From a bacterium (GTDB lineage Bacteria > Arandabacterota > Arandabacteria > Arandabacterales > Arandabacteraceae), in NCBI GenBank assembly GCA_029933125.1, contig JAOZOU010000003.1, positions 62,001 to 126,000 of the forward strand: a DNA stretch of 64,000 nucleotides. Reading direction: 5' to 3'. The stretch's first letter is position 1. Each line of letters starts with the position of its first letter. This document shows, piece by piece, positions 2,153-63,090 of this stretch. Both the position numbers and the translations under genes were made by a program. The notes under the pieces are model-generated. The model searched no databases and was not told where the DNA came from. It was given only the letters and a program-made list of their open reading frames with translations.

Positions 2153-3615
2153 GGCTAGTCCTGCTTGTAGGGCTTCCGGGAAGCAGTCAGGGTCGGCCCA
2201 CTGAACTGACAAGCAGCTGGGTCTATGAGTATTTCTCTGAGCTTAGACTGAGACATCCCCAAGGAAGGTTTTTTGTCAACACCGGACCCTATGAGAGGGA
2301 CCGAATAGCTGCCTATGCAGAAGATCTCAAGCCTCGTGATGAACGCAGCATTTGGTTGCGCAAGATGCTCATGGCTGAGCTCGGGCAAACATTGGAGATT
2401 GATTCAACATCAGCTGTGGTGCGTGGAGAGTTTATGCTCGCATCATTTTTGGAAACCGATGAGAGAGCACGAGCTTCAAGTCTTGTTAGATTGGCTATCC
2501 GTTCGGGGAAGGATATCTCGCTTTGGACTCTTTTCAGAGCAACACTTAATGGTCCGGAACTTCACAAGATTGAGGCGCGGCCTTGGAAACGAAATGCAAG
2601 AGCAAGTATTGAAGCTGGCGGAATGAATTTTCGCCATGGTAGATTCTCAATATTTCTCGGGCGAGATGAAGTGAGTTGGGGAATTGATCGGAGATTTGGT
2701 CTCCTTTTTTCAGGTTCTGCCCATGCTTTTGACATGGTGAAGCTAAACTTCAGGACAGATAGGTTTTTCTATACAACCTTTGCCTCACGCTTAAGAAGAG
2801 GTGAGGATGATTCCTGGGATGAGAGCATGAGACGTTATGTCGCTGCTCATCGTCTTGAATTTGCACCAGCATCGTGGCTCAATCTTGGACTTGCCGAGAC
2901 TGTAATCTATGGAGGTAAGAATCGTCCTTTTGAACTCGCATATCAAAATCCCCTTACCATTCTCTATGCAGAGCAGTGGAACTTGAAGGAGGATGATAAC
3001 ATTCTCATATCAGCGGACATAGCTCTCAACATCCGAGGCAAAATTGAGGCTAAGGCTGAGGTTCTCATAGATGACTTTCAGTACGATTTTAAGAGCAAGG
3101 GTAACAAGATTGGTCTGGGAATTGAATTCACAGCTCTCAATCCGCTTCAACAGGAAGAAGGACTCATAGGATTCTCATATTTTCATATCCGGCCAGGCAC
3201 ATATAGCCACAGGATTGACTACAATCGTTTCACTCAGGAAGCTCTTCCTATCGGCTATCCTGACGGATCCGATTGTGATAGATTCGGTCTCTGGTCTTCT
3301 TTTGCTTGGCGGGAGGATATGCTCCTCACACTGGGTTTCGTGTTGAAGCGTAAAGGCGAGGGAGAGGTCTTCGATTCTGGGGGGACACATCTGGATAGTG
3401 GCTTTCTCCAGGGTACGGTTGAAAGGGATCTAAGAGCGGGGTGCGAGCTTGCCTGGCATCCTTCACAGGTGGCAATGGCTCAGGTCAGGCTAGAATGGTA
3501 CAGGACTACCAACCTTGACAACCTTGAGAATAGAGATGAAAGTGGAATGAGGCTTGGCTTTGAATTTTGCTTAAACACCAAATTCGGCGCTAAGAGTGGA
3601 GTTAGTAGAAGATGA
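2128..3615 (+). CDS. Outer-membrane beta-barrel protein, capsule-assembly Wzi-like
   Basis: 495 residues from the ATG at 2128. This start is preferred over an in-frame upstream one because it gives a short basic N-terminus plus a hydrophobic signal peptide ending near GSSQG. After an alpha-helical N-terminal part (about residues 20-160) come many alternating hydrophobic strands rich in aromatic residues. The stretch LGRDEVSWGIDRRFGLLFSG and the later GKNRPFELAYQNPL resemble the Wzi / capsule-assembly barrel family. In that family the protein sits in the outer membrane and binds surface polysaccharide; here this role is only inferred. The gene overlaps comF by 25 bp and the C25 peptidase gene by 4 bp. 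It could equally be an uncharacterised porin-like barrel. Confidence 0.6.
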   Translation: MRCCIISIGLVLLVGLPGSSQGRPTELTSSWVYEYFSELRLRHPQGRFFVNTGPYERDRIAAYAEDLKPRDERSIWLRKMLMAELGQTLEIDSTSAVVRGEFMLASFLETDERARASSLVRLAIRSGKDISLWTLFRATLNGPELHKIEARPWKRNARASIEAGGMNFRHGRFSIFLGRDEVSWGIDRRFGLLFSGSAHAFDMVKLNFRTDRFFYTTFASRLRRGEDDSWDESMRRYVAAHRLEFAPASWLNLGLAETVIYGGKNRPFELAYQNPLTILYAEQWNLKEDDNILISADIALNIRGKIEAKAEVLIDDFQYDFKSKGNKIGLGIEFTALNPLQQEEGLIGFSYFHIRPGTYSHRIDYNRFTQEALPIGYPDGSDCDRFGLWSSFAWREDMLLTLGFVLKRKGEGEVFDSGGTHLDSGFLQGTVERDLRAGCELAWHPSQVAMAQVRLEWYRTTNLDNLENRDESGMRLGFEFCLNTKFGAKSGVSRR

Positions 3616-6600
3616 AAAAGTGGATTTTCCTCGGAATGCTTCTTGCAAGCTTCCAGGCAGCTTTCGCACTTGAGGTTGATTTTGAGTGGAGTTTACCAGC
3701 CCGATGGCAGCCTGAGACTTTTGAGACAGCTCTTCTGAGGTCATCTTCAGATGTTCCTCGGCAACAAACCTTCTCAAAACTTTTGCTCCTTCCTGATGGT
3801 TATGAGGTTGAAAGCTACAGGATACTTGCTGAGGATTGGCAAACCCTTGAGAAAAATCTTGGGGCGAGGATTGCACCTGTTGATTCCTCAGGTGAGCCTA
3901 TGCTCACCAGGTCTCACGTCAATGTTGCATCGGGTAGGATGATGGGATATGAAGTTGCGCTTGTAACGGTTTACCCCTTTCGAAAAACAGGAGACGCCCT
4001 GGAGATCCTTAAACACTGTTCTCTTAAGCTAAGCCTCGTACCGAATGAATCACACCTGGAAGTGATGCGGAGAAGCTATCGGGCACAGGCTGAGGTCTCA
4101 CGGGCTCTGGAATTGCTCACAGGCGAAGAGCCGGAAGCAAGATGGTCTCTTGAGTTGCCAACCTCGACTGTGACTGAGCAGCCAAGTCCGCATGGAAGTG
4201 TCATTGATTGCGTTATAGTTACACCTGACAGTTTGAGGCAGCAATTCGATCGGATAGCGAACTTCCACAACTCGCTTGGGATTAGAACCATTGTGAAGGA
4301 CATTGATTGGATACTTACCAATTACGACGGCGTTGACGAAGCAGCACGCTTGAGAAATTTTCTGAAAGATGCCTATCAGAGCTGGGGTACTATTTACTTC
4401 TTGTTTGGCGGTGATCCCTCACTTGTCCCCATGCGCCTGCTTGACTATCCCTCAATGCGAAGCCTTATAGGTGTGAGCTCAATCGCAACAGACGTTTACT
4501 ACACTAATCTTGATGGGACATGGAATGCCGATGGCGATGAAACGATTGGTGAATTTGGGCCATCTGAACATGACGAACCAGATCGGTTCCCAGATGTTTT
4601 CGTTGGAAGAGCACCTGTGAAATCACTTGCAGAGGCTCGTGTCTTTGTCGATAAGACACTTCATTACATGAGAGGTGAGAATCCGGGAGTATGGTGTCGA
4701 ACTGTTGTCTCACTGGCCCAGCAGCTCTTCGAATATCTCGATGGTGCCACGTTCTCTGAGCAGCTGCTCGAGGAATTTCCGCAGAACTTCAGAAAGATAA
4801 GAATCTATGAGAATTTTGAGGACTATCCTGGCTCAATCGAAGAAAATGCTACCAATGCACTCGCTTACATCGATAGTGGCTGCAACATTGTGAGCCACAT
4901 AGGTCATGGCGACGAGCTCCGACTCGATCTTGGAACGGAATTTCTTGAGCGTTTCCAGATTGCCAGCCTTTCCAATGACACAGCCTTTTGTTTCATCTAC
5001 ATGATGAATTGTTCATCTTCGGATCCACGAGTTGAAAGTGTAGCCAAAGCCTTTCTCAAGGATCCCGATGGAGGTGCTTTCGCTGTTCAGGGTAACAGTG
5101 CACTTGCATTTCCTTCCACTGGTTTACCCATGGAACAGGACTTTTTCAGACTGATCTTCTCTGAAGGTCGGCCGAGTGTTGGGGTTGTAAGCTCCATTTA
5201 TCGTGTTCCCTACCTCTGGGGAGACGATGTTGTACGCTGGTGGATGTATCTCAACTATATACTCGACGGTGATCCTGTTGTTCGGTTATGGGTGGATGAG
5301 CCTGGGGAGTTTGAGGTGGTTCATGGTGGGAGTTTGAGTGTGGGGGACAGTTTGGTGGTGGTTGAGGTACGAGATGGGGGTGTTGGTGTTGAGGGTGCGG
5401 TAGTGGTATTGGAGGGAGGTTATGGGGAGTATGGAGTGGGTGTTAGTGGAGTTGGAGGTATTGCGGAGGTGGGGTTTAGGCCGTTGGGGGTTGGTGTTGT
5501 GAGGATGTATGTGAGTGGGGATGGATATCGTGTGTATGAGGACAGTTTGGAGGTAGTTGGTGGTGGTAGGTGTTATGTGAGTAGTGTGGAGGTGGATGAT
5601 GGGGATGGGTGGGTAGGCAATGGTGATGGTGTAGCTGGATGGGGGGAGCGTGTGGGGTTGGGAGTAGGGTTAAGGAATGGGGGTGTTGGGGATATTGGGG
5701 GAGTATGGGGTAAGTTGCGTGAGGTTGAGGGGTGTAGTTTATGGGTGTATGTGGAGATAGACAGTGGTGTTGTGGACAGTTTGGTGAATATAGGGAGTGG
5801 GAGTAGGCATCCTGATGGTAATCCGTTTGGTTTGGGTGTTGAGAGGTGGGTGATGGGTAGGGGCTTGGGGGGAGTGGGGGAGGAGGTGGGGTGTTGGATA
5901 TGGTTGGATGGTATGGGTTGGCATGTTCGGTTTGTAGGTGATGGGGGTGAGCATGCGTACAGGTGTAGTTTGGGGGTGTATGGGGGTATGGTGGGTGTTA
6001 GTGGTTATGGTTTGGAGGTTGGTGACAGTTTGGTAGTTGATGTGGGGGTTAGTATAAGTGGTGGGTTGGGTGTAGGAGATTATGAGGATGGGATAGATAT
6101 GGAGGTTGGATTGGGGGGAATGGTGGAGGTATTAGTTGACAGTGTATATTATGGGGTAGTTGGTGGTAGTGAGGAGGTGGGGTGGTATGAGGTAGGGTTT
6201 GACAGTGTGGGTGGAATGGATGGAGTAGGTGTATGGTTTGAGTTGGAGATGGGTGATAGTATAGGTAGTAGGTGGAGTGATTGGGTATGGGTGGAGGTGG
6301 AGGATGGGGAGTTGGTATTGGAGCGGTTGAGGTATGATGGTGGGGGAGACAGTTTGGGGTTATATTGTGGGGTGCGTAATGTAGGTGGGGGAGGTTTGGT
6401 TGGAGTGGAGGGTAGGTTGCGTGGATTGTGGGGAGTTGAGGTATTGGACAGTGTGAGTTGGTATGGGGATATAGGGGGTGGGAGTTATAGTGAGGGTGAT
6501 GGTTATGGTGTTAGGGAGTATGGGGATAGTGTTAGGTATGAGTTGGAGTTAGTGGATGGTTATGGGCGCAGGTGGTTGGACACGTTGGGAGTTCGAGATG

Positions 6601-9101
6601 TGGGTGTGGTGAGTGGGTTGGTTGGAGAGGTAGGGAGTGATTATGTTGATTTGAGTTGGGGGTGTAGTGACAGTTTGGTGGATGGGTATGACATATATCG
6701 TAGTGATGATTATAGTGGTGGATACAGTTTAGTTGGTATGGTGGATGGATATAGGCGGTATAAGGATGTGGGGTTGGTGAGTGAGGAGGATTATTACTAT
6801 TATGTAGAGGGGCGAGATGGTGATGGCAACTTGAGTGAGCCATCGGAGACACTCTGTGTGTGGACTGGCTCCCCACAACTACCAGGATTCCCCATAGAGC
6901 TGAGGGGTGCAGCTTTTCCATCGCCTGTTGCTGGGGATGCAACGCATGATGGTAATAAGGAGATATTTATTGGCTCGAAAGGGCTTGAGGTAAGCGGCTT
7001 CACCAAGGATGGCAAACTTCTTGACGGATTTCCCTATGAGGGCGAATGTGAGATCTGGTCGTCACCCATTCTCGTTGACCTTGATGGTGATGGTACACTT
7101 GAATGCATTTTTGGAGAGGGCAAAGGCAACCACAGACCCAATTGTGCGCGGCTTGTCGCTCTCAACCATGATGGATCTTTTGTCTCGCCAACAAATAATC
7201 CAAGGCTTGCCTCAAGTGCACCGGGTTGGCCGCAGGAGGTCCTTAAGCTCATAAGATCCTCACCGGTTGCGTATGACCTTGATGGCGATGATCATCCAGA
7301 GATAATGATTGGCATCGAGCCCAATCCTCCAGGTGGGGAGACTTATCCCTTTTACATTTTCGCATACGATGGTAGCGGCTATCTGGAAAGTGGTCCTGAA
7401 TTTGGCCAGGTTGAGGGAGGTATCTGGGCGACACCTGCTGTTTGCGACCTTGATAGTGATGGCTCCTGTGAGATAATTGTCTGTGATAAGCGTGGGAATC
7501 TCTATATCTGGAGAGCCACTGGCGAGCCATATCTTGGTGATTCGACAGCAGTGGTAGCACGGACGAATTCTATCTTTCTTGCTTCACCTGCAGTTGGCGA
7601 TATTGACGGCGATGGAAAACCCGAGATCGTATGTGTGAATACTAAGGGTGAGGTTTATGCCTGGAACAACGATGGTTCATCGGTGGGCGGCCAATCCGTC
7701 CTTGTATCTTTTGGCGATTTTACCCAGTCATCGCCTGCGCTTGCCGATTTCGACTCAGATGGATCCCTCGAGATTGTGTTTGGTGTGGGCAGCGATGACG
7801 GCAGCCTCATTCTCATAAGAGGTGATGGGACATCCTATTCAGACAGTTCTAGGATTCTATGCTGGAATTGGCCACTTGGTTCAACTTCGCCAGCAGTCGG
7901 TGATATTGACAACGATGGTTTTCTTGAAATCGTAACCTGCAGCGAGCACGGCGATGTGATTGCGGTTAACGAGGATGGGAGCAGCGTAAACGGATTCCCA
8001 CGCAGGATTGCAAGCTATATTTACTCGAGCCCCATGATAGATGATCTCGATGGTGACGGTGACATTGAAATTGCCGTTGGCGGCTATGATTCACGCTTGC
8101 ACGTTTGGGATCTAAAAGCCCCCTACGATCCATCCAAACTACCTTGGCCAATGTTTCATCATGATAGATGGCATACAGGTTGTTATGGCTTTGAGCCGCC
8201 AGGCGATACGAGAGGACCATCATTTACAATTGCTATGTTTGCTAATCCAGCTGTTGAGAGATCAGTTGACATTTATGTGGTTGCAGACGAGGGTCTGGGC
8301 GGATCACCGCGGATCGAAGCAAAGAAGGGTAGCTCAACAGTGCTTGAGGTGACACAAGTTGTTGAGAAGCCACCCGTCTATAGAGCCCACTACGTTCTGG
8401 CTCAAGCTATGGCTGAAACAATCTATGTTGAGGCAAGCGACATTTATGGCAATCCTGGAAGCGCACAGCGCATAATAACTCACTCCCAGCTTCACGGCAA
8501 TATGCTTGTTGCAACAAGCTGGGACAGTTTGGTGATTGCTAGGGTAGCCCGGAGTGATGCGCTAGATGAGATTGTAATAATGCCGATAGATGTTACATAC
8601 TTTGGCAAATCCCGGGATGTGCAGATGCTTCCTAGCGGCTATAACGTTGCGAAGTTTGGAGAAAATTGCAGGTTGGATTTACTGGTAAAAAATCCTCCTG
8701 GTTACAAACTCTTTCGTTATGAAGGCAAGTGGGAGCCTGTTGAGGATCAGCATCTGGTCTCAGGTTGGTTGGTTGCAGAAACAGAGCCTGGCATCTTTGC
8801 GCTTGGCATGGGTGATGTGTCTTCACATGCACTGGATATGAAACTGGTAGGAAGCAATCCCTTCAGTGATATTTGCCGACTGAGACTTAGTGTGGCGCAA
8901 AAGTCAGAGTTAGATCTTAGGGTTTACGATGTTAGGGGAAGACTTGTCCGCTCCATCTATAGTGGCAAGATAGAAGGTGAGGTCAATCTTGTTTGGGATG
9001 GTAGCGATGATTCTGGACATAGAGTTTCGAGCGGCATCTATTTCATAAGAGGCAAAGCAGGTGAGGAGGCTACAACAGCGAAGGTTATACTTGTGAGGTA
9101 G
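3612..9101 (+). CDS. Secreted C25 (gingipain-type) cysteine peptidase with Ig/CARDB/Fn3 stalk, FG-GAP propeller and FlgD-like C-terminal sorting domain
   Basis: 1829 residues. Domain order: signal peptide (1-20); propeptide-like region (20-190); C25 peptidase core (about 195-560) with probable catalytic His432 (SHIGHGD) and Cys467 (MNCSS); a stalk (553-1095) of Ig-like, CARDB-like and fibronectin-III units (Fn3 about 998-1076) that is the C-depleted repeat copy 1; an FG-GAP/VCBS propeller (about 1095-1510) with repeated DxDGDG calcium loops; and a C-terminal FlgD-like Ig domain (about 1745-1829, YDVRGRLVR, then SGIYFIR). Such a tail is typical of type IX secretion cargo, so cell-surface or extracellular proteolysis is likely. 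A paralogue lies at 10577, and PorU and PorV are at the window end. Codon use inside 5268-6897 is unlike the rest of the gene. Confidence 0.9.
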   Translation: MKKWIFLGMLLASFQAAFALEVDFEWSLPARWQPETFETALLRSSSDVPRQQTFSKLLLLPDGYEVESYRILAEDWQTLEKNLGARIAPVDSSGEPMLTRSHVNVASGRMMGYEVALVTVYPFRKTGDALEILKHCSLKLSLVPNESHLEVMRRSYRAQAEVSRALELLTGEEPEARWSLELPTSTVTEQPSPHGSVIDCVIVTPDSLRQQFDRIANFHNSLGIRTIVKDIDWILTNYDGVDEAARLRNFLKDAYQSWGTIYFLFGGDPSLVPMRLLDYPSMRSLIGVSSIATDVYYTNLDGTWNADGDETIGEFGPSEHDEPDRFPDVFVGRAPVKSLAEARVFVDKTLHYMRGENPGVWCRTVVSLAQQLFEYLDGATFSEQLLEEFPQNFRKIRIYENFEDYPGSIEENATNALAYIDSGCNIVSHIGHGDELRLDLGTEFLERFQIASLSNDTAFCFIYMMNCSSSDPRVESVAKAFLKDPDGGAFAVQGNSALAFPSTGLPMEQDFFRLIFSEGRPSVGVVSSIYRVPYLWGDDVVRWWMYLNYILDGDPVVRLWVDEPGEFEVVHGGSLSVGDSLVVVEVRDGGVGVEGAVVVLEGGYGEYGVGVSGVGGIAEVGFRPLGVGVVRMYVSGDGYRVYEDSLEVVGGGRCYVSSVEVDDGDGWVGNGDGVAGWGERVGLGVGLRNGGVGDIGGVWGKLREVEGCSLWVYVEIDSGVVDSLVNIGSGSRHPDGNPFGLGVERWVMGRGLGGVGEEVGCWIWLDGMGWHVRFVGDGGEHAYRCSLGVYGGMVGVSGYGLEVGDSLVVDVGVSISGGLGVGDYEDGIDMEVGLGGMVEVLVDSVYYGVVGGSEEVGWYEVGFDSVGGMDGVGVWFELEMGDSIGSRWSDWVWVEVEDGELVLERLRYDGGGDSLGLYCGVRNVGGGGLVGVEGRLRGLWGVEVLDSVSWYGDIGGGSYSEGDGYGVREYGDSVRYELELVDGYGRRWLDTLGVRDVGVVSGLVGEVGSDYVDLSWGCSDSLVDGYDIYRSDDYSGGYSLVGMVDGYRRYKDVGLVSEEDYYYYVEGRDGDGNLSEPSETLCVWTGSPQLPGFPIELRGAAFPSPVAGDATHDGNKEIFIGSKGLEVSGFTKDGKLLDGFPYEGECEIWSSPILVDLDGDGTLECIFGEGKGNHRPNCARLVALNHDGSFVSPTNNPRLASSAPGWPQEVLKLIRSSPVAYDLDGDDHPEIMIGIEPNPPGGETYPFYIFAYDGSGYLESGPEFGQVEGGIWATPAVCDLDSDGSCEIIVCDKRGNLYIWRATGEPYLGDSTAVVARTNSIFLASPAVGDIDGDGKPEIVCVNTKGEVYAWNNDGSSVGGQSVLVSFGDFTQSSPALADFDSDGSLEIVFGVGSDDGSLILIRGDGTSYSDSSRILCWNWPLGSTSPAVGDIDNDGFLEIVTCSEHGDVIAVNEDGSSVNGFPRRIASYIYSSPMIDDLDGDGDIEIAVGGYDSRLHVWDLKAPYDPSKLPWPMFHHDRWHTGCYGFEPPGDTRGPSFTIAMFANPAVERSVDIYVVADEGLGGSPRIEAKKGSSTVLEVTQVVEKPPVYRAHYVLAQAMAETIYVEASDIYGNPGSAQRIITHSQLHGNMLVATSWDSLVIARVARSDALDEIVIMPIDVTYFGKSRDVQMLPSGYNVAKFGENCRLDLLVKNPPGYKLFRYEGKWEPVEDQHLVSGWLVAETEPGIFALGMGDVSSHALDMKLVGSNPFSDICRLRLSVAQKSELDLRVYDVRGRLVRSIYSGKIEGEVNLVWDGSDDSGHRVSSGIYFIRGKAGEEATTAKVILVR
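5268..6897 (+). repeat. Cytosine-depleted 1,630-bp repeat, copy 1
   Basis: Same length as, and apparently identical to, 12290-13919 (constant offset 7,022; both borders and many lines compared by eye, translations identical). Just outside the borders the two genes differ. Inside 5281-6840 a hand count gives about 52 C in 1,560 nt; two sampled 60-nt lines had 33 and 30 G, 17 and 16 T, 7 and 14 A, 3 and 0 C. Leu is almost only TTG/TTA, Ser almost only AGT, and Pro, Thr, His, Gln, Lys and Ala codons are rare. The block is in frame, encoding stalk residues 553-1095 of the peptidase. About 20 nt at the 5' edge and 60-70 nt at the 3' edge are of ordinary composition but still identical between copies. 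Confidence 0.97.
5855..5891 (+). other. Dense G-run cluster, predicted G-quadruplex (copy 1)
   Basis: Five runs of 3-6 G (5855-5857, 5860-5863, 5867-5872, 5876-5880, 5888-5891) are separated by loops of 2-7 nt. This satisfies the usual G3+N1-7 quadruplex pattern on the coding, non-template strand. The same motif recurs at 12877-12913. Folding is predicted, not shown. Confidence 0.6.
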
Positions 9102-9103
9102 GT

Positions 9104-9994
9104 ATGAAACGTTTGGTGATTACGATCGTGGCTTTGGGATTGGGGTGTGGTGGGGGTGGTGGCGGCACGCAACCTACTCCCCAACCACCTTCGATCATAA
9201 GTGGTCCAAGTGTTCATAACATAACAGCCACTTCAGCTGAGATAAGGTGGAAAACTGATAAAATATGTGATTCCAAGGTACGCTTCGGGCGCTCAGGCTA
9301 TGAGGATTCAATCTATAGTGCGCAAATGGTGGAAGATCACAGGCTCGCCATCTCGGGTCTTCTAGCGCTCACAACTTATCACTACAATGTGACATCCAAG
9401 GACGCCGGAGGTCTGAGCGTCACATCAGAGGACGGTGTTTTTAAAACCTTAAGCCCTGCCGGTGACTTAGTCGAGGATGGCTGGGACTTTTTCGAATCCG
9501 GATCCTATGATTCCGCTCTGGTGTATTTCGGGATGGCCCTAAGCTATGAGCCTGAGAATCTCGAAGCGCTAAAAGGAAAGGGCTGGGCAAAACTTAAGCT
9601 TTATGCCTTCGATGAGGCTCGCAATACTTTTGAAACAGCTCTCGGACTTTCTTCCTGCATAGATTGTTTGGCAGGCTTGGTATTTTGCTATCTCGGACTC
9701 GAAGCCTATGACGATGTGCTTGAGAAAAGTGAAACATTACTTGAACTTGCTGGTGGGGCATATGTGTTCGAGCATGATACTTCGATCACTGCCAAGGGTA
9801 TAAGGTATGCACGCGTGCTTGCCTTTGTAGCCCAGGGTGATTTCATGGCAGCTCTCGACGAGGTGAAAATCCTTGACCCGACTGTAAGCCTCAATCCTGA
9901 TGATCCATCTACCTGGAATGGTCACCTCACTTTTGAAGAGGCTCTCCTTGCCATCATTGAAGCTATGGGCTCGGAGTTGAGAAGCTGCCTCTGA
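9104..9994 (+). CDS. Probable lipoprotein with fibronectin-III-like domain and TPR repeats
   Basis: 296 residues. The N-terminus is a short signal peptide ending in LGLGC, a usable lipobox with Cys15, followed by a Gly run and a Thr/Pro linker. Residues about 32-115 look like an Fn3 or purple-acid-phosphatase N-terminal domain (ITATSAEIRWKTD, then LTTYHYNV). Residues about 120-290 hold TPR-like helices (YDSALVYFGMALSYEPENLEALKGKGWAKL). No enzyme signature is visible. The role is probably protein-protein scaffolding at the periplasmic face of a membrane. It begins 2 bp after the first C25 peptidase and is likely co-transcribed with it. The following 582 bp are non-coding, so the transcript probably ends here. 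Confidence 0.75.
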   Translation: MKRLVITIVALGLGCGGGGGGTQPTPQPPSIISGPSVHNITATSAEIRWKTDKICDSKVRFGRSGYEDSIYSAQMVEDHRLAISGLLALTTYHYNVTSKDAGGLSVTSEDGVFKTLSPAGDLVEDGWDFFESGSYDSALVYFGMALSYEPENLEALKGKGWAKLKLYAFDEARNTFETALGLSSCIDCLAGLVFCYLGLEAYDDVLEKSETLLELAGGAYVFEHDTSITAKGIRYARVLAFVAQGDFMAALDEVKILDPTVSLNPDDPSTWNGHLTFEEALLAIIEAMGSELRSCL

Positions 9995-10576
9995 CTCTCC
10001 GGCACGCTAGGCGCAGGGGTGGGCTGGGCTTCTTGCCTTTCACAAGATTGTTACTCGGCTCAGGAAGGGAAAATAAGGTGAATATCAGGGTGAGCAGAAT
10101 CTTGCTCAGATCTCGTAACCGCTCAAGACTAAGGATGTTCTCCTGTGCCAGCCTGAGGACATGTCTAACAGCTCGCAATCAGAGTTTGAATCTTCCACCA
10201 GCTTGAGTCTTTTAATTCTCCTCGTCGTCACTGTTCGTGAACGACTGTGCCAAGCCAGCACCACGAGATCTGATCATTGGGCTCCTTAGTAAGTCGGGCA
10301 CCTGTTAGGTAGTGGCCACATTTAGGGCGTTAGGCTGCAGAGACCTCGCTACGGTTTCATGCGGACTTCTAGCTCCGACCCCAAATTGCGCGGTTTCGAG
10401 ATCTTTAGCTCCACCTACAGGGGTGGCATTTGCTTGACGCGGGAGGCCCTGGTGTGGTATAATGGAGCGTCAAAAGGGAAATCAAGTGCCCTTCCCGAAA
10501 GAGCCCGGCGCGACCCCAGGAGGGTAGGCGCAGCCTTGCATGTCGGTGAAGCTCAAACCCTAAGAGGTGTAATCCC
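9995..10576 (+). other. 582-bp intergenic gap upstream of the second C25 peptidase
   Basis: No convincing gene is seen on either strand: short open frames on both strands have no recognisable motifs or ribosome-binding sites. The base composition is more balanced and C-richer than the neighbouring genes. The last 145 bp hold a strong sigma-70-like promoter (10434-10463) and a leader of roughly 105-110 nt. The first 430 bp could be remnant DNA; one minus-strand stretch around 10130-10250 reads as broken, basic peptide fragments that could not be assigned. Confidence 0.6.
10434..10463 (+). promoter_or_regulatory. Sigma-70-type promoter of the second C25 peptidase
   Basis: TTGACG at 10434-10439 and a perfect TATAAT at 10458-10463 are separated by 18 bp. 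Transcription would begin near 10470, leaving a leader of about 107 nt before the ATG at 10577. The leader contains a GGGAA/TTCCC inverted pair (near 10475-10499) and other GC-rich inverted segments, so it may be structured. No known riboswitch class was matched. Confidence 0.75.
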
Positions 10577-13500
10577 ATGAATGCAAAAGGCATCTTTGTT
10601 AGCTTTGCACTGGCTTTTGTGCTTCCCGTCTGCGCTTTCGGTTATACAGTCAATCTCCACTATGGCTGGAAAACGGAAGATGTGCGGATAAGCGAAAAGG
10701 ATGGCTTTGACTATCTTGGAGTCAGGGGAGCAATTTTCTCAGACGGGAGTCTTGGACAAGTCTATGATCTAAAACTCATTCCTGAGGGTTATAAGGTAAG
10801 CCAATTCAGGATCGCAAGACAGGAGTGGCAGGATCTTGCTGGTTCGTTCCGCATAGGAAAGCTCAATGGGAAGGCAATGGCTCTCATGATGGGCGATGAG
10901 GAAGGTGGGCTGGGATACCTTGGGAGTACCAATGCCTTTGGTTTTGCCATTCTCACTGCTGCAGTGAGGCCCTTTAGGTTTGTCGACGGTAAGCTGAGTG
11001 TGCTTAAAGCCATGGATGTTGAAATCGAGTGCGAACCCGATCCTGAAGTTCCTAGACCTTTAAGGCGAAGCCACCTCACAGATTCATATCTTCGAAGAGT
11101 CATGGGAAAACTGCTCGGAACTGATATTACCTCTTATGGTTCCTGGCTTACTCAGGGGTATCGCGACTGGGTTAGCGAGGCTCCGAGCCCTGATGGAAGT
11201 GTTGTCGATTGTGTAATCGTAACATCTGACAGCCTCGCAAGTGTTTTCCAGGAGCTCGCTGCCTGGCATGACAAGCTGGGTGTAAGGACGGTAGTAAGAA
11301 GTGTAGAGTGGATAGAAAGCAATTACAGTGGTGCTGATGGGGCTGAGAAGGTGCGAAACTTTCTGCGGGATGCTTATGAGAATTGGGGCACAATCTATGC
11401 TTTACTTGGTGGCGCACCTGAGATCGTTCCCATGCGCTATATCTGGACCAATTACTACGGTGGGGAGTTCATCCCGACGGATGTTTACTACGGTGACTTG
11501 GCTGGCACGTGGAATGCTGACGGTGACAATATCTATGGTGAGTTTGGGAATAGCCCAGACGATCCTGGCGATGACGTTGCCTTCTATGCACAGCTTTTCA
11601 CTGGAAGAGCACCTGTAAGAAACTCAGTTGAGGCTCAAGCTTTCGTTGACAAGACCATGGCATATGCCGACGAGGCAGATTCGAGCTTTGCAACATCCGC
11701 ACTTTTCTTAGGAGAGGTTATCTTTCCTCAGGACTGGCAGCCTGGCGATCCGATTACCCTGGACGGTGGCGACATCTGCGACAGTGCATCTACCTATTTT
11801 CCAGCCTACTTCGATACGCTGAAGCTCTATCAAAAATGGGGCAACATGACACGTACATCGTGTATGGATGCCTTTGACGTCGGCTACAATTATAACATAA
11901 TTGCTGGACATGGCGATGCTTTCAGAATGTCGGCAGCTGAGGGTGACCCACCCTATATTTATGCCGAGGATTTCGATACTTTGAGTAACTACAACCGTTG
12001 GGGATTCGTCTACGCACTCAATTGTAATAACCTTGCAGTCGATGTCGATTGTGTCTTCAGGCATTTCCTGCTCAATCCTAATGGTGGTGCTTCTGCGGTA
12101 TATGCCACGACGCGTTATGATTTTCCCAATGTGGGCCAGTATTTTCTCGATGAGTTTCTTGACCTCGTGTTTAACGCGGGTATAACGCGTCTTGGTGATG
12201 CCTGCACACTTCACCATATCAAGTTCATCCCAACTGCTCTTGTCCATGAAGGAGCGGTGCGCTGGTCAGTTTTCACCTATCTCCTTGCTGGTGATCCTGT
12301 TGTTCGGTTATGGGTGGATGAGCCTGGGGAGTTTGAGGTGGTTCATGGTGGGAGTTTGAGTGTGGGGGACAGTTTGGTGGTGGTTGAGGTACGAGATGGG
12401 GGTGTTGGTGTTGAGGGTGCGGTAGTGGTATTGGAGGGAGGTTATGGGGAGTATGGAGTGGGTGTTAGTGGAGTTGGAGGTATTGCGGAGGTGGGGTTTA
12501 GGCCGTTGGGGGTTGGTGTTGTGAGGATGTATGTGAGTGGGGATGGATATCGTGTGTATGAGGACAGTTTGGAGGTAGTTGGTGGTGGTAGGTGTTATGT
12601 GAGTAGTGTGGAGGTGGATGATGGGGATGGGTGGGTAGGCAATGGTGATGGTGTAGCTGGATGGGGGGAGCGTGTGGGGTTGGGAGTAGGGTTAAGGAAT
12701 GGGGGTGTTGGGGATATTGGGGGAGTATGGGGTAAGTTGCGTGAGGTTGAGGGGTGTAGTTTATGGGTGTATGTGGAGATAGACAGTGGTGTTGTGGACA
12801 GTTTGGTGAATATAGGGAGTGGGAGTAGGCATCCTGATGGTAATCCGTTTGGTTTGGGTGTTGAGAGGTGGGTGATGGGTAGGGGCTTGGGGGGAGTGGG
12901 GGAGGAGGTGGGGTGTTGGATATGGTTGGATGGTATGGGTTGGCATGTTCGGTTTGTAGGTGATGGGGGTGAGCATGCGTACAGGTGTAGTTTGGGGGTG
13001 TATGGGGGTATGGTGGGTGTTAGTGGTTATGGTTTGGAGGTTGGTGACAGTTTGGTAGTTGATGTGGGGGTTAGTATAAGTGGTGGGTTGGGTGTAGGAG
13101 ATTATGAGGATGGGATAGATATGGAGGTTGGATTGGGGGGAATGGTGGAGGTATTAGTTGACAGTGTATATTATGGGGTAGTTGGTGGTAGTGAGGAGGT
13201 GGGGTGGTATGAGGTAGGGTTTGACAGTGTGGGTGGAATGGATGGAGTAGGTGTATGGTTTGAGTTGGAGATGGGTGATAGTATAGGTAGTAGGTGGAGT
13301 GATTGGGTATGGGTGGAGGTGGAGGATGGGGAGTTGGTATTGGAGCGGTTGAGGTATGATGGTGGGGGAGACAGTTTGGGGTTATATTGTGGGGTGCGTA
13401 ATGTAGGTGGGGGAGGTTTGGTTGGAGTGGAGGGTAGGTTGCGTGGATTGTGGGGAGTTGAGGTATTGGACAGTGTGAGTTGGTATGGGGATATAGGGGG

Positions 13501-15460
13501 TGGGAGTTATAGTGAGGGTGATGGTTATGGTGTTAGGGAGTATGGGGATAGTGTTAGGTATGAGTTGGAGTTAGTGGATGGTTATGGGCGCAGGTGGTTG
13601 GACACGTTGGGAGTTCGAGATGTGGGTGTGGTGAGTGGGTTGGTTGGAGAGGTAGGGAGTGATTATGTTGATTTGAGTTGGGGGTGTAGTGACAGTTTGG
13701 TGGATGGGTATGACATATATCGTAGTGATGATTATAGTGGTGGATACAGTTTAGTTGGTATGGTGGATGGATATAGGCGGTATAAGGATGTGGGGTTGGT
13801 GAGTGAGGAGGATTATTACTATTATGTAGAGGGGCGAGATGGTGATGGCAACTTGAGTGAGCCATCGGAGACACTCTGTGTGTGGACTGGCTCCCCACAA
13901 CTACCAGGATTCCCCATAGCAACCACAAATGTATTCCCATCCTCACCTGTTGTCGCTGACATCGATAAGGATGGCTATAAGGAAATAATAATAGGCAGTA
14001 AGGATAAATGTGTGCATGTTTGGCACTATGATGGGACACCCGTGGCAGGGTGGCCTGGGTGCACAGGCGATGAAGTTTGGTCTACAGCAGCCGTTGCCAA
14101 TCTTGATGATGATCCAGAGCTTGAGATAATCATCAGCTCATACGATGGAGACGTCTATGGCTGGAATGCCGATGGCTCAGGAATAAGAAATCCTGATGGT
14201 GTCTTCAGACATGTAGGTGGTCTGTGTAAGTCCCCCCCAGCGATCGACGATCTTGACGGCGATCTTCAGCTTGAAATTGTGGCTACCAATAGCTATGGTC
14301 AGGTCTATGTATGGCATGAGGATGGGACAGGTTATCTTCAGCCAAACGGCTTCTTCGCGCAGGGTAGTGGCAATATGGCAGGTTCGCCAACGCTTGCCGA
14401 CATAGATGGGGATGATGATTTGGAGATAATAGTTGGCTCAACTGGTGGTGATGTCTATGTATGGCACCACGATGGAACTGGCTACCTCCAGCCAGATGGA
14501 ATCTTCGCCTCATACGGCGGGGTATACGGAGCTCTGGCAGTTGGTGATGTTGACAACAATGGGGATATGGAGCTCGTGATGGTTGGCCTTTACTGGAAAG
14601 CTGTTGCTGTCTTTGATCACGATGGCACATTCCATGGAGGCTGGCCACGCAACGTCGACTGTGGTGCTTATGCTTCTCCGGCGCTTGCGGATCTCGATGG
14701 TGACGGTAGGCTCGACATAATTGTTGGGACCCATCGTGGAAGCACTGATACGACTGCAAGCATGTACGTTTTCTCCGACAATGGCGAGATCAGACCTGGA
14801 TGGCCAATAAGCCTAAGGGCAGATTTCTACTCATCTCCCGCTGTTGGTGATATAGACGGTGATGGTGATCCTGACATCGTTGTGGGTTCAACCGATGGGA
14901 GAATCTATGCGTGGCATAAAGATGGCACACCTGTCGATGGCTGGCCTCGCAATTTTATGTATGCCTTCTACTCCAGCCCAACTCTGACAGATATAGACAA
15001 TGACGGTGATGTCGATATTGTGATCGCTGGCTATGATGGCAAGGTTTATGTTTTTGATCTCAGTGCGCCCTACAACGAATCAACAATGGAATGGCCCAAG
15101 ATCTGTCATGATCTTTTCAATAGCGGTCTCTATCACGGTCCTTCAAAAGCAGGTGTCAACGGCTCTGCACGGTCGCCCCAGAAGTTTATCCTGCAAACAT
15201 ATCCTTTACCCGCAAGAGGCTGCGTCACTATCAAGTTAGGTATTCCCTCACAAGCCTCATCACATGTTGATGTTGACGTTTATGATGTCCGTGGACGCCT
15301 TGTGAGGCAAGTCTATAAGGGAGCTCTTGACCCAGGATATCACAACATAACCTGGGACGGCAAAGATGAGGCTGGTAGCGAAGCTGCTAGCGGCATATAC
15401 TTCATTAAGGCAAATCACATGGGCAAAACACGAAACCGCAAGATCGTACTCGTGAGGTAG
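10577..15460 (+). CDS. Second secreted C25 peptidase sharing the C-depleted stalk module
   Basis: 1627 residues. Order: signal peptide (about 1-22); propeptide-like region; C25 core (about 205-575) with probable catalytic His445 (IAGHGD) and Cys483 (ALNCNN); stalk residues 572-1114, identical to the stalk of the first peptidase; FG-GAP/VCBS propeller (about 1115-1510) with repeated DIDGDGD-type loops; FlgD-like C-terminal domain (about 1538-1627, YDVRGRLVR, SGIYFIK). Outside the stalk the two peptidases are clearly related but strongly diverged. Export by type IX secretion is inferred from the C-terminal domain. The ATG lies about 107 nt downstream of a good promoter, so this gene starts its own transcript, probably continuing into the acyltransferase 3 bp downstream. 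Confidence 0.9.
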   Translation: MNAKGIFVSFALAFVLPVCAFGYTVNLHYGWKTEDVRISEKDGFDYLGVRGAIFSDGSLGQVYDLKLIPEGYKVSQFRIARQEWQDLAGSFRIGKLNGKAMALMMGDEEGGLGYLGSTNAFGFAILTAAVRPFRFVDGKLSVLKAMDVEIECEPDPEVPRPLRRSHLTDSYLRRVMGKLLGTDITSYGSWLTQGYRDWVSEAPSPDGSVVDCVIVTSDSLASVFQELAAWHDKLGVRTVVRSVEWIESNYSGADGAEKVRNFLRDAYENWGTIYALLGGAPEIVPMRYIWTNYYGGEFIPTDVYYGDLAGTWNADGDNIYGEFGNSPDDPGDDVAFYAQLFTGRAPVRNSVEAQAFVDKTMAYADEADSSFATSALFLGEVIFPQDWQPGDPITLDGGDICDSASTYFPAYFDTLKLYQKWGNMTRTSCMDAFDVGYNYNIIAGHGDAFRMSAAEGDPPYIYAEDFDTLSNYNRWGFVYALNCNNLAVDVDCVFRHFLLNPNGGASAVYATTRYDFPNVGQYFLDEFLDLVFNAGITRLGDACTLHHIKFIPTALVHEGAVRWSVFTYLLAGDPVVRLWVDEPGEFEVVHGGSLSVGDSLVVVEVRDGGVGVEGAVVVLEGGYGEYGVGVSGVGGIAEVGFRPLGVGVVRMYVSGDGYRVYEDSLEVVGGGRCYVSSVEVDDGDGWVGNGDGVAGWGERVGLGVGLRNGGVGDIGGVWGKLREVEGCSLWVYVEIDSGVVDSLVNIGSGSRHPDGNPFGLGVERWVMGRGLGGVGEEVGCWIWLDGMGWHVRFVGDGGEHAYRCSLGVYGGMVGVSGYGLEVGDSLVVDVGVSISGGLGVGDYEDGIDMEVGLGGMVEVLVDSVYYGVVGGSEEVGWYEVGFDSVGGMDGVGVWFELEMGDSIGSRWSDWVWVEVEDGELVLERLRYDGGGDSLGLYCGVRNVGGGGLVGVEGRLRGLWGVEVLDSVSWYGDIGGGSYSEGDGYGVREYGDSVRYELELVDGYGRRWLDTLGVRDVGVVSGLVGEVGSDYVDLSWGCSDSLVDGYDIYRSDDYSGGYSLVGMVDGYRRYKDVGLVSEEDYYYYVEGRDGDGNLSEPSETLCVWTGSPQLPGFPIATTNVFPSSPVVADIDKDGYKEIIIGSKDKCVHVWHYDGTPVAGWPGCTGDEVWSTAAVANLDDDPELEIIISSYDGDVYGWNADGSGIRNPDGVFRHVGGLCKSPPAIDDLDGDLQLEIVATNSYGQVYVWHEDGTGYLQPNGFFAQGSGNMAGSPTLADIDGDDDLEIIVGSTGGDVYVWHHDGTGYLQPDGIFASYGGVYGALAVGDVDNNGDMELVMVGLYWKAVAVFDHDGTFHGGWPRNVDCGAYASPALADLDGDGRLDIIVGTHRGSTDTTASMYVFSDNGEIRPGWPISLRADFYSSPAVGDIDGDGDPDIVVGSTDGRIYAWHKDGTPVDGWPRNFMYAFYSSPTLTDIDNDGDVDIVIAGYDGKVYVFDLSAPYNESTMEWPKICHDLFNSGLYHGPSKAGVNGSARSPQKFILQTYPLPARGCVTIKLGIPSQASSHVDVDVYDVRGRLVRQVYKGALDPGYHNITWDGKDEAGSEAASGIYFIKANHMGKTRNRKIVLVR
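12290..13919 (+). repeat. Cytosine-depleted 1,630-bp repeat, copy 2
   Basis: Equal in length and apparently in sequence to 5268-6897, in the same orientation, 7,022 bp downstream. It begins at the codons for the GDP of the conserved GDPVVRLW motif that closes the C25 fold, and ends at the PGFPI motif that opens the propeller. The exchangeable unit is therefore exactly the stalk. Directly outside, the sequences part immediately (GAC|GGT against GCT|GGT on the left; ATAG|AGC against ATAG|CAA on the right). No target-site duplication, inverted termini or integrase/transposase gene flank it. Confidence 0.97.
12877..12913 (+). other. Dense G-run cluster, predicted G-quadruplex (copy 2)
   Basis: Counterpart of 5855-5891 at the constant 7,022-bp offset, with the same five G runs on the coding strand. 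Many further GGG/GGGG runs occur throughout the repeat. Confidence 0.6.
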
Positions 15461-58718: not shown

Positions 58719-59140
58719 TGTGTTCGGTAACACATGTGGCTGCTGGAGCACTGCTGGGAAGCCTTGGGGAAGGGAGATTGGTGGCTTTCTTGATAGGATT
58801 CGGATCCCACATACCGCTTGATATGCTCCCCCACATAGACTTTGAGGATTTTCGTTTTGACGCAGCCGTATCGGTTGTCCTGCTTGCAGGGATCTATGCC
58901 TTTTCTGGATTTTCACCAGTACTTTGGGGTGCTCTTGGAGCTGTTGCTCCTGATTTTGAGAATCTTCTTTGGAAGGTGGGCGTGATAAGGGAGGAAGGGA
59001 AGATTTTTCCGACCCATTCAGGTTTGATAAAGCACGGCAAAGCCGGGAATGCTGGCAGTCTTCAGACTGAGATTGCTATGTCGCTCGTGTCTGCTGGTCT
59101 TGTCGCAGTCGCACTTCTTATCGGGGGAAGTTCCAATTGA
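58718..59140 (+). CDS. Small membrane protein resembling the YdjM/DUF457 group
   Basis: 140 residues. It begins [14 protein letters not shown] and carries GSHIPLDMLPHID near 30-42 and VAPDFENLLW near 75-85: His/Asp motifs in hydrophobic context that resemble the metal-dependent-hydrolase-like YdjM / DUF457 membrane family, though much shorter than typical members. Two or three membrane segments, the last at the C-terminus (MSLVSAGLVAVALLIGG). Function unknown. It overlaps the porU start by 4 bp. Confidence 0.55.
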   Translation: MCSVTHVAAGALLGSLGEGRLVAFLIGFGSHIPLDMLPHIDFEDFRFDAAVSVVLLAGIYAFSGFSPVLWGALGAVAPDFENLLWKVGVIREEGKIFPTHSGLIKHGKAGNAGSLQTEIAMSLVSAGLVAVALLIGGSSN

Positions 59141-62100
59141 GAGTTTCAGTGTTACTCACATCTCTTGTTTGTCTTATCTTTATCTGGGTAGGTAGTACCT
59201 CTGGCGGCATAAAAGTGGAGAATACGAGTAGCGACGGGCTCGACATGGTCGTTAGTCTCGATGGCATCTCGAATGTTGAAAACAATGATGGGCAATGGGC
59301 AGGAATCCGTCTCCCAGGGTTTTTACCGCTTGTGTCGGAGAGCCTTGGCGTAGCCATTCCTGTTAGGAGTGTTCTCGTTGGCGCACCCCCCAATAGTGAA
59401 GTAACATATGATATAACAGACGTAACTTCTTATGATATCGATAGATACACGAGCAAAAGATTGCTAGAAAAGTTGGGAGATGTGCTCCAGGTTCTGCCAA
59501 CAAAGCCAGCTGAGATTATGCGCGATGGATATTATCGCCACCGCCGCTTGCTCGGGGTGAGGATCACACCACTCATACTCGACGAGGGGAGGGGAATCTT
59601 GCAAGTCTGCAGGGGATTTCGGATAAGGATTCGATTTGCTCATGATGGGACTAAATCCTACGCCTTGGGTTCTTACCTCCCTTCAAGTGGAGCCTTGAGA
59701 GGTGCGATGCTCAACTCACAGCAAGCAAGCAACTGGCTTGTACCCTGGAAGCCTCTTCGTCAGGAAGATGATTACTTCACCAGTTCCCCCAACTGGATCA
59801 AGATAAAGGTCGATTCAACTGGAATCTATGCCCTGACAGGAGATGATCTTGAGAATGCTGGTATCGATATCTCCCAGATCGAAGTTTCTTCTCTTCGGCT
59901 TTATAGCGGAGGAGGTTTGCCCCTCAGTGAAAGTCTGGCTGACACCAATGCCTCGTGGATGCATCAAGTAGCTCTTAAGGTATGCGATGGTGGTGATGGT
60001 GTTTTTGACAGGGCTGATAGCCTCATCTTCTATGGACTGGGCTGGCGAGATTGGGCTGACCTATATGATCCCCATCTAAGTCACACCTCTTTTTACAAAA
60101 GCTTCTACTGCTCCTATAATTGCTATTGGCTTACTTGGGGTGGTAGTTTTGGTGAGCCAGCCAACAGAATGCTGTCACGTAGACTCCCTGAGTGTTCGGG
60201 TTGCTCCTATTTTGAACCCCAGGTATTTGAGGAGCGCATACACAGGGAGCGTGATCTTTTTGAGATGTTCAGTGTGCGTGCCGAGGATGGGTGGTACTGG
60301 TACTACTTGCGTCCCGGTAGCCCATTTACCGATACCTTCAGAATACCTTCACCTGACGTCGGCTTTCCAGCAAGGCTCAGGATAAGGGTGGCGAGCTGGG
60401 CTCAAAATCAGTGCAGTGGCGACTACTTCAGAGTCCAATGTCATCTTAATGGAACAAGAGTCATGGATGTATCATGGTCTGCACCTCTCATCGATAGAAA
60501 CATAAAGGACCTTGATACACTCATCACACTTTCGAGCTCAGGGCAGCAACAGATTGTAATTGAGAACAGGCAGAGTATGGGGCCTCCCTACGGTCATTTA
60601 GGTATTTGCGATAGATTGATTCTCGCCTGGTATGAAATTTTCTACATGCGCAGGTTCGAGGCTGACAATGGAAGCCTTTACTTCGATGCACCTGATACAG
60701 CTGGCTATGTGAAATATCATTTAAGTGGATTTACTGTGCCCATATATCTTTTTGATGTTACCGACCAGTTCGATGTCGAAGAGCTTACCGGCTTCGAGGC
60801 CGACCCGGGGTCTTTTGAAGTTACATTTTTCGATACTTTGAGTGGTTACAGGCGACGCTACGCTGCAGTCACCTCATCCGCAATGCTTAAGCCTATGGAA
60901 ATAGAGAAGGTTCTTATCACTAACATTCGTTACAGTCCAACTAAAGCCTATTGTGTCGTTACACACCGTGACTTGATCGATGCTGCAAGAACTATTGCTG
61001 ATTTCAGGGATGGTGAAGTGGTTAGTCTTGATGAGATTTACAATGAGTTTGGTTGGGGATTGCCAGATGCAACTGCGATCAGGGATTTTCTGCGGTGGCG
61101 CTATTGGCATGGTCCTTTGAGCTGGGTGTTGCTCCTGGGTGATGCAACCTGGGATCTTAAAGGGCGAAGGGGGCAGGCAACATATAAGAACTATGTTCCT
61201 TCCTATGAGCGAAGATATCTACCGCCAGTTGGAGACACCTACAATACAGATGACTGGTTTGCCTATCTTGAACCGAGCTGGCGAGAGAGCCTCGCAGATT
61301 TTCCAACTGTCGCTCTATCGCGGTTACCAGCAATATCGCCTGAGGATGCTCAGGCTCTAGTTGAGCGGACCCTTGCCTACGAGGCAAATCCTGAGCCCGG
61401 TATGTGGCAGGCTACGGTCATACTCGTTGCTGACGATGACCGCGTCGGTTCAAGCTGTGATGGCATACGTCACACTGATTACGCTGAGGAGCTCGCCGAT
61501 AAGGGAATGCCACTCCTTTTCAGACAGGTGAAGATCTACCTCACAGAGTATGAACCTGAAGCAACTGGCGATAAGACAGCTGCCAAGAATGATTTCATTG
61601 CGAATCTTAACCGTGGTGCTCTTATCACTAACTTCGTCGGCCATGGTGATCCCTCCCGTCTTGCCCAAGAGAGAGTCTTTGAGTCGAGAGACATCGATCT
61701 TGTCAAGACTGGCAGACGCCGGACTTTCTTCATAGCCGCTAGCTGCAATGTGAGTAGATTTGATGATCTAGCCAGAATATCAATGGCTGAAGATCTCATC
61801 CACCGGACAGAAGGTGGGACAATTGGATCTCTTGCCTCAACCCATCTTTGTAAGGCAGAGCCTAATCAGGCTCTCAACCTAAACTTTCTTCAGCAGCTTT
61901 TCCATGATGATTTCCTTGAGTCACCTGTTACCATAGGGGATGCAGTTGCAATCGGTAAGTTCCTTACGGTTGCCTCAGCTCGCAATCACGATCTCTACTG
62001 GAGAAACAGTGAAATGTATGCCCTCTTTGGTGACCCGGCTCTCACACTTGCCTACCCACGCTATGGGGTTTCGTTTGTGCAGGGGCTCCCTGACACGCTC

Positions 62101-63090
62101 AAGCGCAAGGGTACATACAGCATTCAGGCGGTCATAACCTCATCCGGGCAGAGGGTGAATGACTTCGGCGGCGAAGCCGAGATTTTCGTTCGTGAAGCAG
62201 AGGATACTTCCGGTTACATTGCTTGCGATGGCCACTTCTTCGACTACGAGCTGCCTGGAGAGGAAATCTTTAGAGGCCAAACTCGTGCCATCGGAGGTGA
62301 GATGGGATTCCGCTTCCTTGTCTCTTCGCCGGCACGCCGTGGACCGGGGGCGACTGTGAGATGTTTCGTCACAGATGGCAAGCGTTCTGCGCTTGGGCTC
62401 ATAGATAGTCTCACAATAGCCGGGGATGCAGAGCTCAGCGATGAACAAGGCCCTGAGATTGAACTCGTTCTTGATGGTCGCACCATTTCTTCTGGTGATA
62501 CATTGCTTTCAGGAAAAAGCGTTGAGATCCACTTATCTGATAGTAGCGGGATTGCTATCAAGAGTCTTTCACAGATTTATCCGATTTCGGTTGCATTCGA
62601 TGATGCTGAGAGAGTGAATCTTGCTGATAGTGCCTTTGCGCTTGGCGGCGACTTCACTACGTGGGTTGCCAGTTTTATTGTTCCGCCGCTTAGCCCCGGG
62701 TTGCACAAGCTTAGTGTATCGGCTTTTGACAATCTGAGTAATCCTACAACAAGGAACTACGAGATTTTTGTTGGCGAAACCGCCTCTAAGCCTTCTAATT
62801 TAGTATATGTGTTTCCCAATCCAGCACGGGATTTCTGCAATTTCATCTGGGAGTACGATACTAACGACGAAGTAGAGATAGAGGTAACAATTATGACGAT
62901 TTCAGGTAGGAAGATCTGGACGGGTAAAACAAGTGGCTTCGGTCCCTACCTTGAGTTGGTCTGGGATTGTAATGATAGCGAGGGAGATCGTGTATCAAAT
63001 GGAACTTACGTAGCCTTGGTTAAGGCAAGGTCTTTGGACGGTAGAGGAATAAGGACAACTGATAAACTTGTTGTTACGGTTATGAAGTAG
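59137..63090 (+). CDS. porU: PorU-like C25-family type IX secretion sortase
   Basis: 1317 residues. Signal peptide (1-23), a long beta-rich N-terminal region (about 25-590), then a C25 peptidase domain (about 596-965) with probable catalytic His836 (NFVGHGDPSR) and Cys870 (AASCNVSRFD), ending in the ALFGDPAL motif. Ig-like parts follow, then a C-terminal FlgD-like domain (about 1218-1317, FPNPARDFCNF, ISGRKIW, SNGTYVA). PorU is the surface sortase that removes cargo C-terminal domains and attaches cargo to lipid. Identification as PorU rather than another cargo peptidase rests on domain order and on porV lying 11 bp downstream. TTG start. Confidence 0.85.
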   Translation: MRVSVLLTSLVCLIFIWVGSTSGGIKVENTSSDGLDMVVSLDGISNVENNDGQWAGIRLPGFLPLVSESLGVAIPVRSVLVGAPPNSEVTYDITDVTSYDIDRYTSKRLLEKLGDVLQVLPTKPAEIMRDGYYRHRRLLGVRITPLILDEGRGILQVCRGFRIRIRFAHDGTKSYALGSYLPSSGALRGAMLNSQQASNWLVPWKPLRQEDDYFTSSPNWIKIKVDSTGIYALTGDDLENAGIDISQIEVSSLRLYSGGGLPLSESLADTNASWMHQVALKVCDGGDGVFDRADSLIFYGLGWRDWADLYDPHLSHTSFYKSFYCSYNCYWLTWGGSFGEPANRMLSRRLPECSGCSYFEPQVFEERIHRERDLFEMFSVRAEDGWYWYYLRPGSPFTDTFRIPSPDVGFPARLRIRVASWAQNQCSGDYFRVQCHLNGTRVMDVSWSAPLIDRNIKDLDTLITLSSSGQQQIVIENRQSMGPPYGHLGICDRLILAWYEIFYMRRFEADNGSLYFDAPDTAGYVKYHLSGFTVPIYLFDVTDQFDVEELTGFEADPGSFEVTFFDTLSGYRRRYAAVTSSAMLKPMEIEKVLITNIRYSPTKAYCVVTHRDLIDAARTIADFRDGEVVSLDEIYNEFGWGLPDATAIRDFLRWRYWHGPLSWVLLLGDATWDLKGRRGQATYKNYVPSYERRYLPPVGDTYNTDDWFAYLEPSWRESLADFPTVALSRLPAISPEDAQALVERTLAYEANPEPGMWQATVILVADDDRVGSSCDGIRHTDYAEELADKGMPLLFRQVKIYLTEYEPEATGDKTAAKNDFIANLNRGALITNFVGHGDPSRLAQERVFESRDIDLVKTGRRRTFFIAASCNVSRFDDLARISMAEDLIHRTEGGTIGSLASTHLCKAEPNQALNLNFLQQLFHDDFLESPVTIGDAVAIGKFLTVASARNHDLYWRNSEMYALFGDPALTLAYPRYGVSFVQGLPDTLKRKGTYSIQAVITSSGQRVNDFGGEAEIFVREAEDTSGYIACDGHFFDYELPGEEIFRGQTRAIGGEMGFRFLVSSPARRGPGATVRCFVTDGKRSALGLIDSLTIAGDAELSDEQGPEIELVLDGRTISSGDTLLSGKSVEIHLSDSSGIAIKSLSQIYPISVAFDDAERVNLADSAFALGGDFTTWVASFIVPPLSPGLHKLSVSAFDNLSNPTTRNYEIFVGETASKPSNLVYVFPNPARDFCNFIWEYDTNDEVEIEVTIMTISGRKIWTGKTSGFGPYLELVWDCNDSEGDRVSNGTYVALVKARSLDGRGIRTTDKLVVTVMK

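Follow-up and report, generated by a model that had tools for sequence, protein, structure and literature searches.

The 64,000-nucleotide window analysed here carries two neighbouring C25 peptidase genes on the forward strand (3612..9101 and 10577..15460), whose Pfam C25 domains score 187 and 173 bits against a cut-off of 23, placing both proteins in the family. Domain searches showed peptidase 1 to consist of the C25 domain, a C-poor stalk, FG-GAP repeats and a FlgD_ig/Por_Secre_tail-like C terminus. Peptidase 2 follows the same plan and, by sequence comparison, has diverged from peptidase 1 outside a single block. This block, an Ig-like/Fn3-type stalk, lies at 5268..6897 (+) in peptidase 1 and at 12290..13919 (+) in peptidase 2, and the two copies are exactly 1,630 bp each, offset by 7,022 bp and without a single mismatch, as originally predicted. 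A third C25 peptidase in the window (59137-63090, 1,317 aa) lacks the stalk block and has ordinary composition.

On the coding strand each block contains 73 C, 765 G, 496 T and 296 A, and the probability of 73 or fewer C in 1,630 nt is approximately 2e-94 given the genomic coding C rate of 0.228. The original prediction had described the module as cytosine-free; the near-absence stands, and the hand count of 52 in 1,560 nt behind it is close to the computed value, but with 4.5% C overall (and 47% G) the term is too strong. Most 50-bp bins of the block hold 0-6% C, the least depleted stretch being its final 50-80 bp. In the left flank of copy 1 (5208..5267, +), which is unique relative to copy 2, composition switches to C-poor right at the homology border, and towards the equally unique right flank (6898..6957, +) ordinary composition is back about 50 bp inside the border. 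No 300-bp stretch outside the blocks had less than 12% of C, G, A or T in a scan of the 64-kb window, and the flanking parts of both peptidase genes are ordinary in the composition profile, as had been claimed. The bias reaches synonymous sites, where GTN codons end in G 42 times, T 31 times, A 23 times and never in C, and serine is encoded by AGT 40 times versus no AGC. It also reaches amino-acid choice, with 23% Gly, 18% Val and less than 1% each of Ala, Thr and Gln, and the reading frame is uninterrupted across both blocks; codon counts, Gly/Val excess and open frame all bear out the earlier description. Third-position C remains at 25 sites of the module, 10 of them in GACAG (GAC AGT, Asp-Ser), a share far above that in the rest of the genome and absent as a pattern from other C-poor blocks.

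Relatives were searched with the module protein. The window genome is referred to here as G000, a sister species of the same genus as G001, and members of other genera as G003 and G004. In G001 (MAG Meg22_1214_Bin_137, JALGWB01, a separate assembly) the module was found in a 12.6-kb contig at 72% protein identity, compared with 100% identity between the copies inside G000, and its coding strand holds 1-4% C. A chimera or base-calling error, the outcome that could have undone the original prediction, is thus contradicted by a C-poor module in an independently assembled sister species. Near its end the G001 module (L165, after about 7431, G001:C216) appears to have lost a short piece and to change frame, either in reality or through an assembly collapse. 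In other members of the family, order and class the module has an ordinary C content of 23-29%. The contigs of G003 and G004 break at the module borders on either side of an approximately 5.3-kb spacer, which is what a short-read assembly would be expected to do at two near-identical copies.

An AlphaFold model of the module with seven homologs as input is a predicted all-beta chain (mean pLDDT 80), its top Foldseek matches are tandem Ig/Fn3 proteins, and weak Pfam matches to fn3 and CarboxypepD_reg were obtained in relatives only. Since the predicted structure is of this type and relatives carry the module with ordinary composition, the fold appears preserved in the genus of the window, and it is the composition that changed. 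The module protein probably keeps its fold and drifts toward Gly, Val, Asp, Glu, Ser and Tyr. The bias works on nucleotides rather than on the protein, as had been proposed, and the same signature is present in EF-Tu and an HD-GYP domain.

These two cases emerged beyond the window, where open frames were called in 1.94 Mb of the 3.23-Mb genome (about 60%) and each 300-nt coding window was set against its best paralogous match. Third-position C and G were 6.3% and 45% in windows with a partner at least 99% identical (n = 24), compared with 25.7% and 23.6% in windows without a paralogous match (n = 4,991). C was below 13% in 17 of the 24 near-identical windows versus 7 of 5,071 other coding windows, and two of these seven belong to an Fn3 repeat contig. 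The repeat families at this identity are few (five, with windows of one family not independent, besides about ten tandem arrays), and four of the five are C-depleted: the C25 module, tuf, an HD-GYP domain pair and a 306-bp tandem repeat in another C25 peptidase. The two tuf genes, which were found through a scan for C-free runs, lie 15 kb apart and are identical over 1,225 bp, and their coding C falls to 6-9% centrally. The C-poor HD-GYP domain is common to two neighbouring sensor kinases. For the module and the HD-GYP pair the composition shifts within about 60 bp of the homology borders. The fifth family, the L086/L215 repeat, showed no C depletion at an identity of at least 99%; presumably it arose by recent duplication or reflects an assembly variant. 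On average, depletion was also missing from pairs at 85-95% identity. Near-identical paralogous segments of G000 are stripped of C on the leading-strand-sense strand, which is the parental lagging-strand template. Low C is restricted, not the genome-wide property that the original prediction had allowed for. Nor is the signature a special stalk cassette of secreted peptidases, as first thought, since EF-Tu, the HD-GYP domain, Fn3 repeats and beta-helix repeats share it and the relatives' stalk is ordinary. The suspected link to a process that copies these segments is upheld, the signature being present wherever segments are kept near-identical.

Several further patches of unusual composition were recorded. 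L064 and L065 (G000:C53, C149) share 3.2 kb exactly, look like two assemblies of one locus and carry C-poor Fn3 repeats. An atypical patch at L103:9683-12027 (G000:C120:275683-278027) has a DNA methyltransferase-like frame, 2-7% third-position C and no repeat partner, and is possibly acquired DNA. Adjoining JAB-like and ThiF/E1-like genes at L066/L007:99-1677 (G000:C25) contain a C-free run and by eye resemble ubiquitin-like defence operons. The upstream part of a C25 gene in another relative (L036:1-700, G006:C92:2032-2732) has up to 51% G and 14-19% C, and an IS256/Mutator-like transposase, judged by eye, at L215:7066-8341 (G000:C42:487066-488341) has 12-21% C, third-position G of up to 46% and near-identical partner fragments elsewhere.

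Depletion could be related to the degree of homogenisation in the HD-GYP pair, which is present in G003 and G004 in the same 2.5-kb arrangement. In G000 the copies are 99.4% identical and third-position C is 5-6%. In G003 and G004 the copies are 88% and 84% identical within the genome, compared with 71-73% to orthologs (71% between G003a and G004a). Paralogs being closer to each other than to orthologs, the pair evolves in concert there too, and third-position C in the block is 22-26% versus 34-36% elsewhere in these genes. For G006, in which one copy was found, the block has 44% and the remainder 46%. In this one domain pair, C depletion thus grows with the degree of homogenisation over three genera.

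The direction of change was read for the module from an ancestral base agreed by at least three of four outgroup sequences. By this definition 84% of the ancestral C is gone from G000 (replaced by T in 128 cases, by G in 88 and by A in 43), against 9 C gained, and G001 has lost 90% and gained 6; over both genomes G and T losses were 12-16% and A losses 27-32%, and a stricter ancestor definition gave the same outcome. The HD-GYP domain kept 36/61 ancestral C, compared with 62/66 A, 111/123 G and 67/71 T. In tuf, compared between G000 and G002 and therefore unpolarised, 63 C>T, 35 C>G and 31 C>A differences are opposed by 6, 6 and 9 in the reverse sense. The FG-GAP part of the same C25 gene served as control and, again unpolarised from G002 to G000, showed 51% of C lost, 31-41% of the other bases lost and 85 C gained. 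Relative to this control C>G was not enriched over C>T. An alignment of the upstream C25 part, which was one base out of frame, was left out of the comparison.

The strongest blocks are all in genes on the leading strand, where the coding strand is also the leading-sense one. The leading strand was inferred from third-position skew, taken from genes in both orientations; this skew agrees within each long contig but is weak. The blocks have the sign of this ordinary leading/lagging GC skew, with a C-poor leading strand, but reach about 0.8, the genome-wide effect being about 0.06. Genes on the lagging strand show the inverse pattern. The strong mirror-image case is one beta-helix gene, L108, in which a 78-bp tandem array (L108:1655-2114, G000:C162) has G at 6/153 (4%) and C at 90/153 (59%) third positions, the gene outside the array being balanced with a skew of about 0. 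The HVVWYDNRDGN... repeat family is G-skewed at third positions in leading-strand L109 (+0.29) and C-skewed in lagging-strand L121/L122 (-0.30 to -0.44), and a shift toward G on the leading sense strand is seen in 8 of the 9 tandem arrays that have at least 75% matches. An IS-like transposase departs from this polarity, but is mobile. The inversion indicates, from few families, that polarity tracks replication rather than transcription.

Taken with the sharp homology borders, the dose response ties the effect to conversion. We consider it slightly more probable than its opposite that the C-poor blocks record ectopic gene conversion that has long been running between paralogous segments, with a bias set by replication strand. 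Single-stranded DNA of one copy would pair with the exposed lagging-strand template of the other, giving a heteroduplex of fixed strand polarity. Template-C mismatches (chiefly C.C, less so C.A and C.T) may slip past mismatch repair and admit the non-C allele, and the reciprocal mismatches with G on the incoming strand (G.G, G.T, G.A) would be rejected. Over many cycles C would leave and could not return, and the stalk may have been caught in such a ratchet because two neighbouring C25 genes share it as a homologous segment. At replication forks single-stranded DNA is known to pair preferentially with the lagging-strand template, and when annealed there C-C mispairs go uncorrected and G-G is well repaired (PMC5021808). 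A MutS is encoded in G000 (PF01624 at G000:C120:344853). For the Salmonella tuf pair, the cited sections of PMC5485169 describe a rise in conversion rates of some 200-1,000-fold upon loss of mutS, a favouring of conversion by poorly recognised mismatches, and tract shapes that mirror the mismatches MutS misses. The same sections give A/C and G/T mismatches as both recognised with high efficiency in enterics. With C>T the commonest change, a C.C blind spot is therefore not sufficient alone. The mild loss of A also speaks against biased conversion, and E. coli tufA shows no such depletion (C3 33% versus 29% in fusA), so that the mismatch-repair rule cannot hold everywhere. The conversion-bias account is weakest on the dominance of C>T, which keeps both damage to exposed cytosines and a RecA preference for GT alive as rivals.

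Damage coupled to recombination is possible, if doubtful. Cytosines of the single-stranded lagging template would be deaminated to give C>T, or lost to give C>G and C>A via abasic sites, and conversion would spread the changes, much as in AID-type mutation joined to conversion or in fungal RIP limited to one strand. The ranking C>T > C>G > C>A and the near-absence of C gain, the loss of C from the very strand exposed on the lagging template and the restriction of change to repeats all fit this explanation. It does not account for the loss of A, and it finds no C/T excess among unshared differences: partly homogenised copies in other genera (fewer than 100 sites) have 41 {C,T} versus 45 {A,G} differences, and L112/L069 has 22 versus 18. 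This strand symmetry, in small numbers, favours bias at the conversion step over mutation input.

Rather improbable in our estimation is a drive by RecA preference, in which the GT-rich strand forms the stabler filament, so that conversion favours alleles richer in G and T and step by step removes C and A. The stability of RecA filaments is highest on TGG and lowest on CCA repeats (PMC3763553), the homogenised blocks are 63-78% G+T, and the retention order G,T > A > C is what such a drive would give. Under such a drive, however, initial composition would decide the strand, whereas one protein repeat is oppositely skewed in L109 and L121/L122. TGG is moreover only modestly above base-composition expectation in most blocks, and the invading strand in gap repair is often the recipient, giving the opposite sign.

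It is improbable, too, that a dedicated or semi-dedicated system acts at the fork, where it would detect duplicated DNA and strip cytosine from its lagging-strand template, a one-strand, conversion-coupled counterpart of RIP or AID that would reshape genes, essential ones included. RIP in filamentous fungi depletes duplicated DNA of C as far as the duplication borders, on both strands and by C>T only, and the copies diverge. The blocks resemble RIP in the loss of C from duplicated DNA and in its edges, but differ in being affected on one strand, by C>T/G/A, with identical copies and open reading frames. AID-driven somatic hypermutation is linked with Ig gene conversion (PMC2625440), and in it C>T/G/A changes accompany conversion, as here. 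AID acts on transcribed Ig genes, however, whereas here polarity follows replication.

A transcription- or RNA-linked origin, whether by R-loop mutation of the non-template strand, mutagenic reverse transcription of mRNA or selection on codons or mRNA structure, is very unlikely. The C-poor strand is the coding strand in the window blocks, tuf and HD-GYP, as it would require, but in lagging-strand genes (L108, L121/L122) it is the template strand, a contradiction unless replication direction is misassigned. The effect also ends at homology borders inside single genes, and no match to a reverse transcriptase domain (PF00078) was found in G000 or G001, both incomplete, whereas relatives and control genomes match. 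An assembly chimera, base-calling artefact or foreign DNA has next to no likelihood, for although the window genome is a MAG-like draft in which exact 1.6-kb repeats are hard to assemble, the separate G001 MAG has the module at 72% protein identity with 1-4% C, reading frames are unbroken and both tuf genes show the signature among their usual fusA/rplC-type and nusG-type neighbours.

Other candidates were rejected. Reverse-transcriptase-driven copying or a diversity-generating retroelement has no enzyme match in the incomplete genomes G000 and G001, and a retroelement of this kind would change A>N, not C>N. G-quadruplex-driven conversion as in pilE is not matched by 3 G4 motifs in the module, 1 in HD-GYP and none in the other blocks, with GGG at or below composition expectation. 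Codon usage of highly expressed genes does not explain shifts within single genes, as in the HD-GYP and C25 blocks, R-loop polarity is contradicted by the lagging-strand arrays, and a RIP-like two-strand C>T process by a single affected strand on which 84% of G is kept. Strand-symmetric GC-biased gene conversion is incompatible with C losses of 84-90% and fewer than 10 C gains.

Among known systems, the concerted evolution of Salmonella tufA/tufB is close to the favoured conversion account, with duplicates kept identical by conversion and mismatch repair deciding which mismatches survive, but strand-specific loss of a single base does not feature in the cited sections of that study (PMC5485169). 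GC-biased conversion in mammalian X palindromes likewise shifts the composition of repeats, but through symmetric gain of G and C (PMC8981503), whereas the present repeats lose C but retain G and T, and do so on one replication strand. In G028, from another phylum, a tuf gene at a contig end (L180, G028:C16) has 8% third-position C and 57% G versus 22% and 37% in fusA, and some relatives of G028 have weaker C-poor, G-rich tuf third positions; two tuf genes of G017, 99.3% identical, show no C-poor signal. The G028 gene hints at wider occurrence, although tuf alone is confounded by codon bias.

No prior description of strand-specific elimination of one base in converted repeats was found in the open-licence literature. 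Concerted evolution is already known; replication-strand-specific cytosine elimination by conversion is, to our knowledge, seemingly undescribed. Conversion bias is usually framed as a strand-symmetric GC bias, and here homogenised repeats show a very strong substitution bias that is strand-polarised, removes one base and has altered the amino-acid make-up of a 543-residue module. The case also warns against always putting C-poor repeats in MAGs down to misassembly, for they can be biology. If the conversion account is true, the composition of paralogs would be a readout of conversion sites, of the heteroduplex strand and of the mismatches that repair misses, in uncultured organisms.
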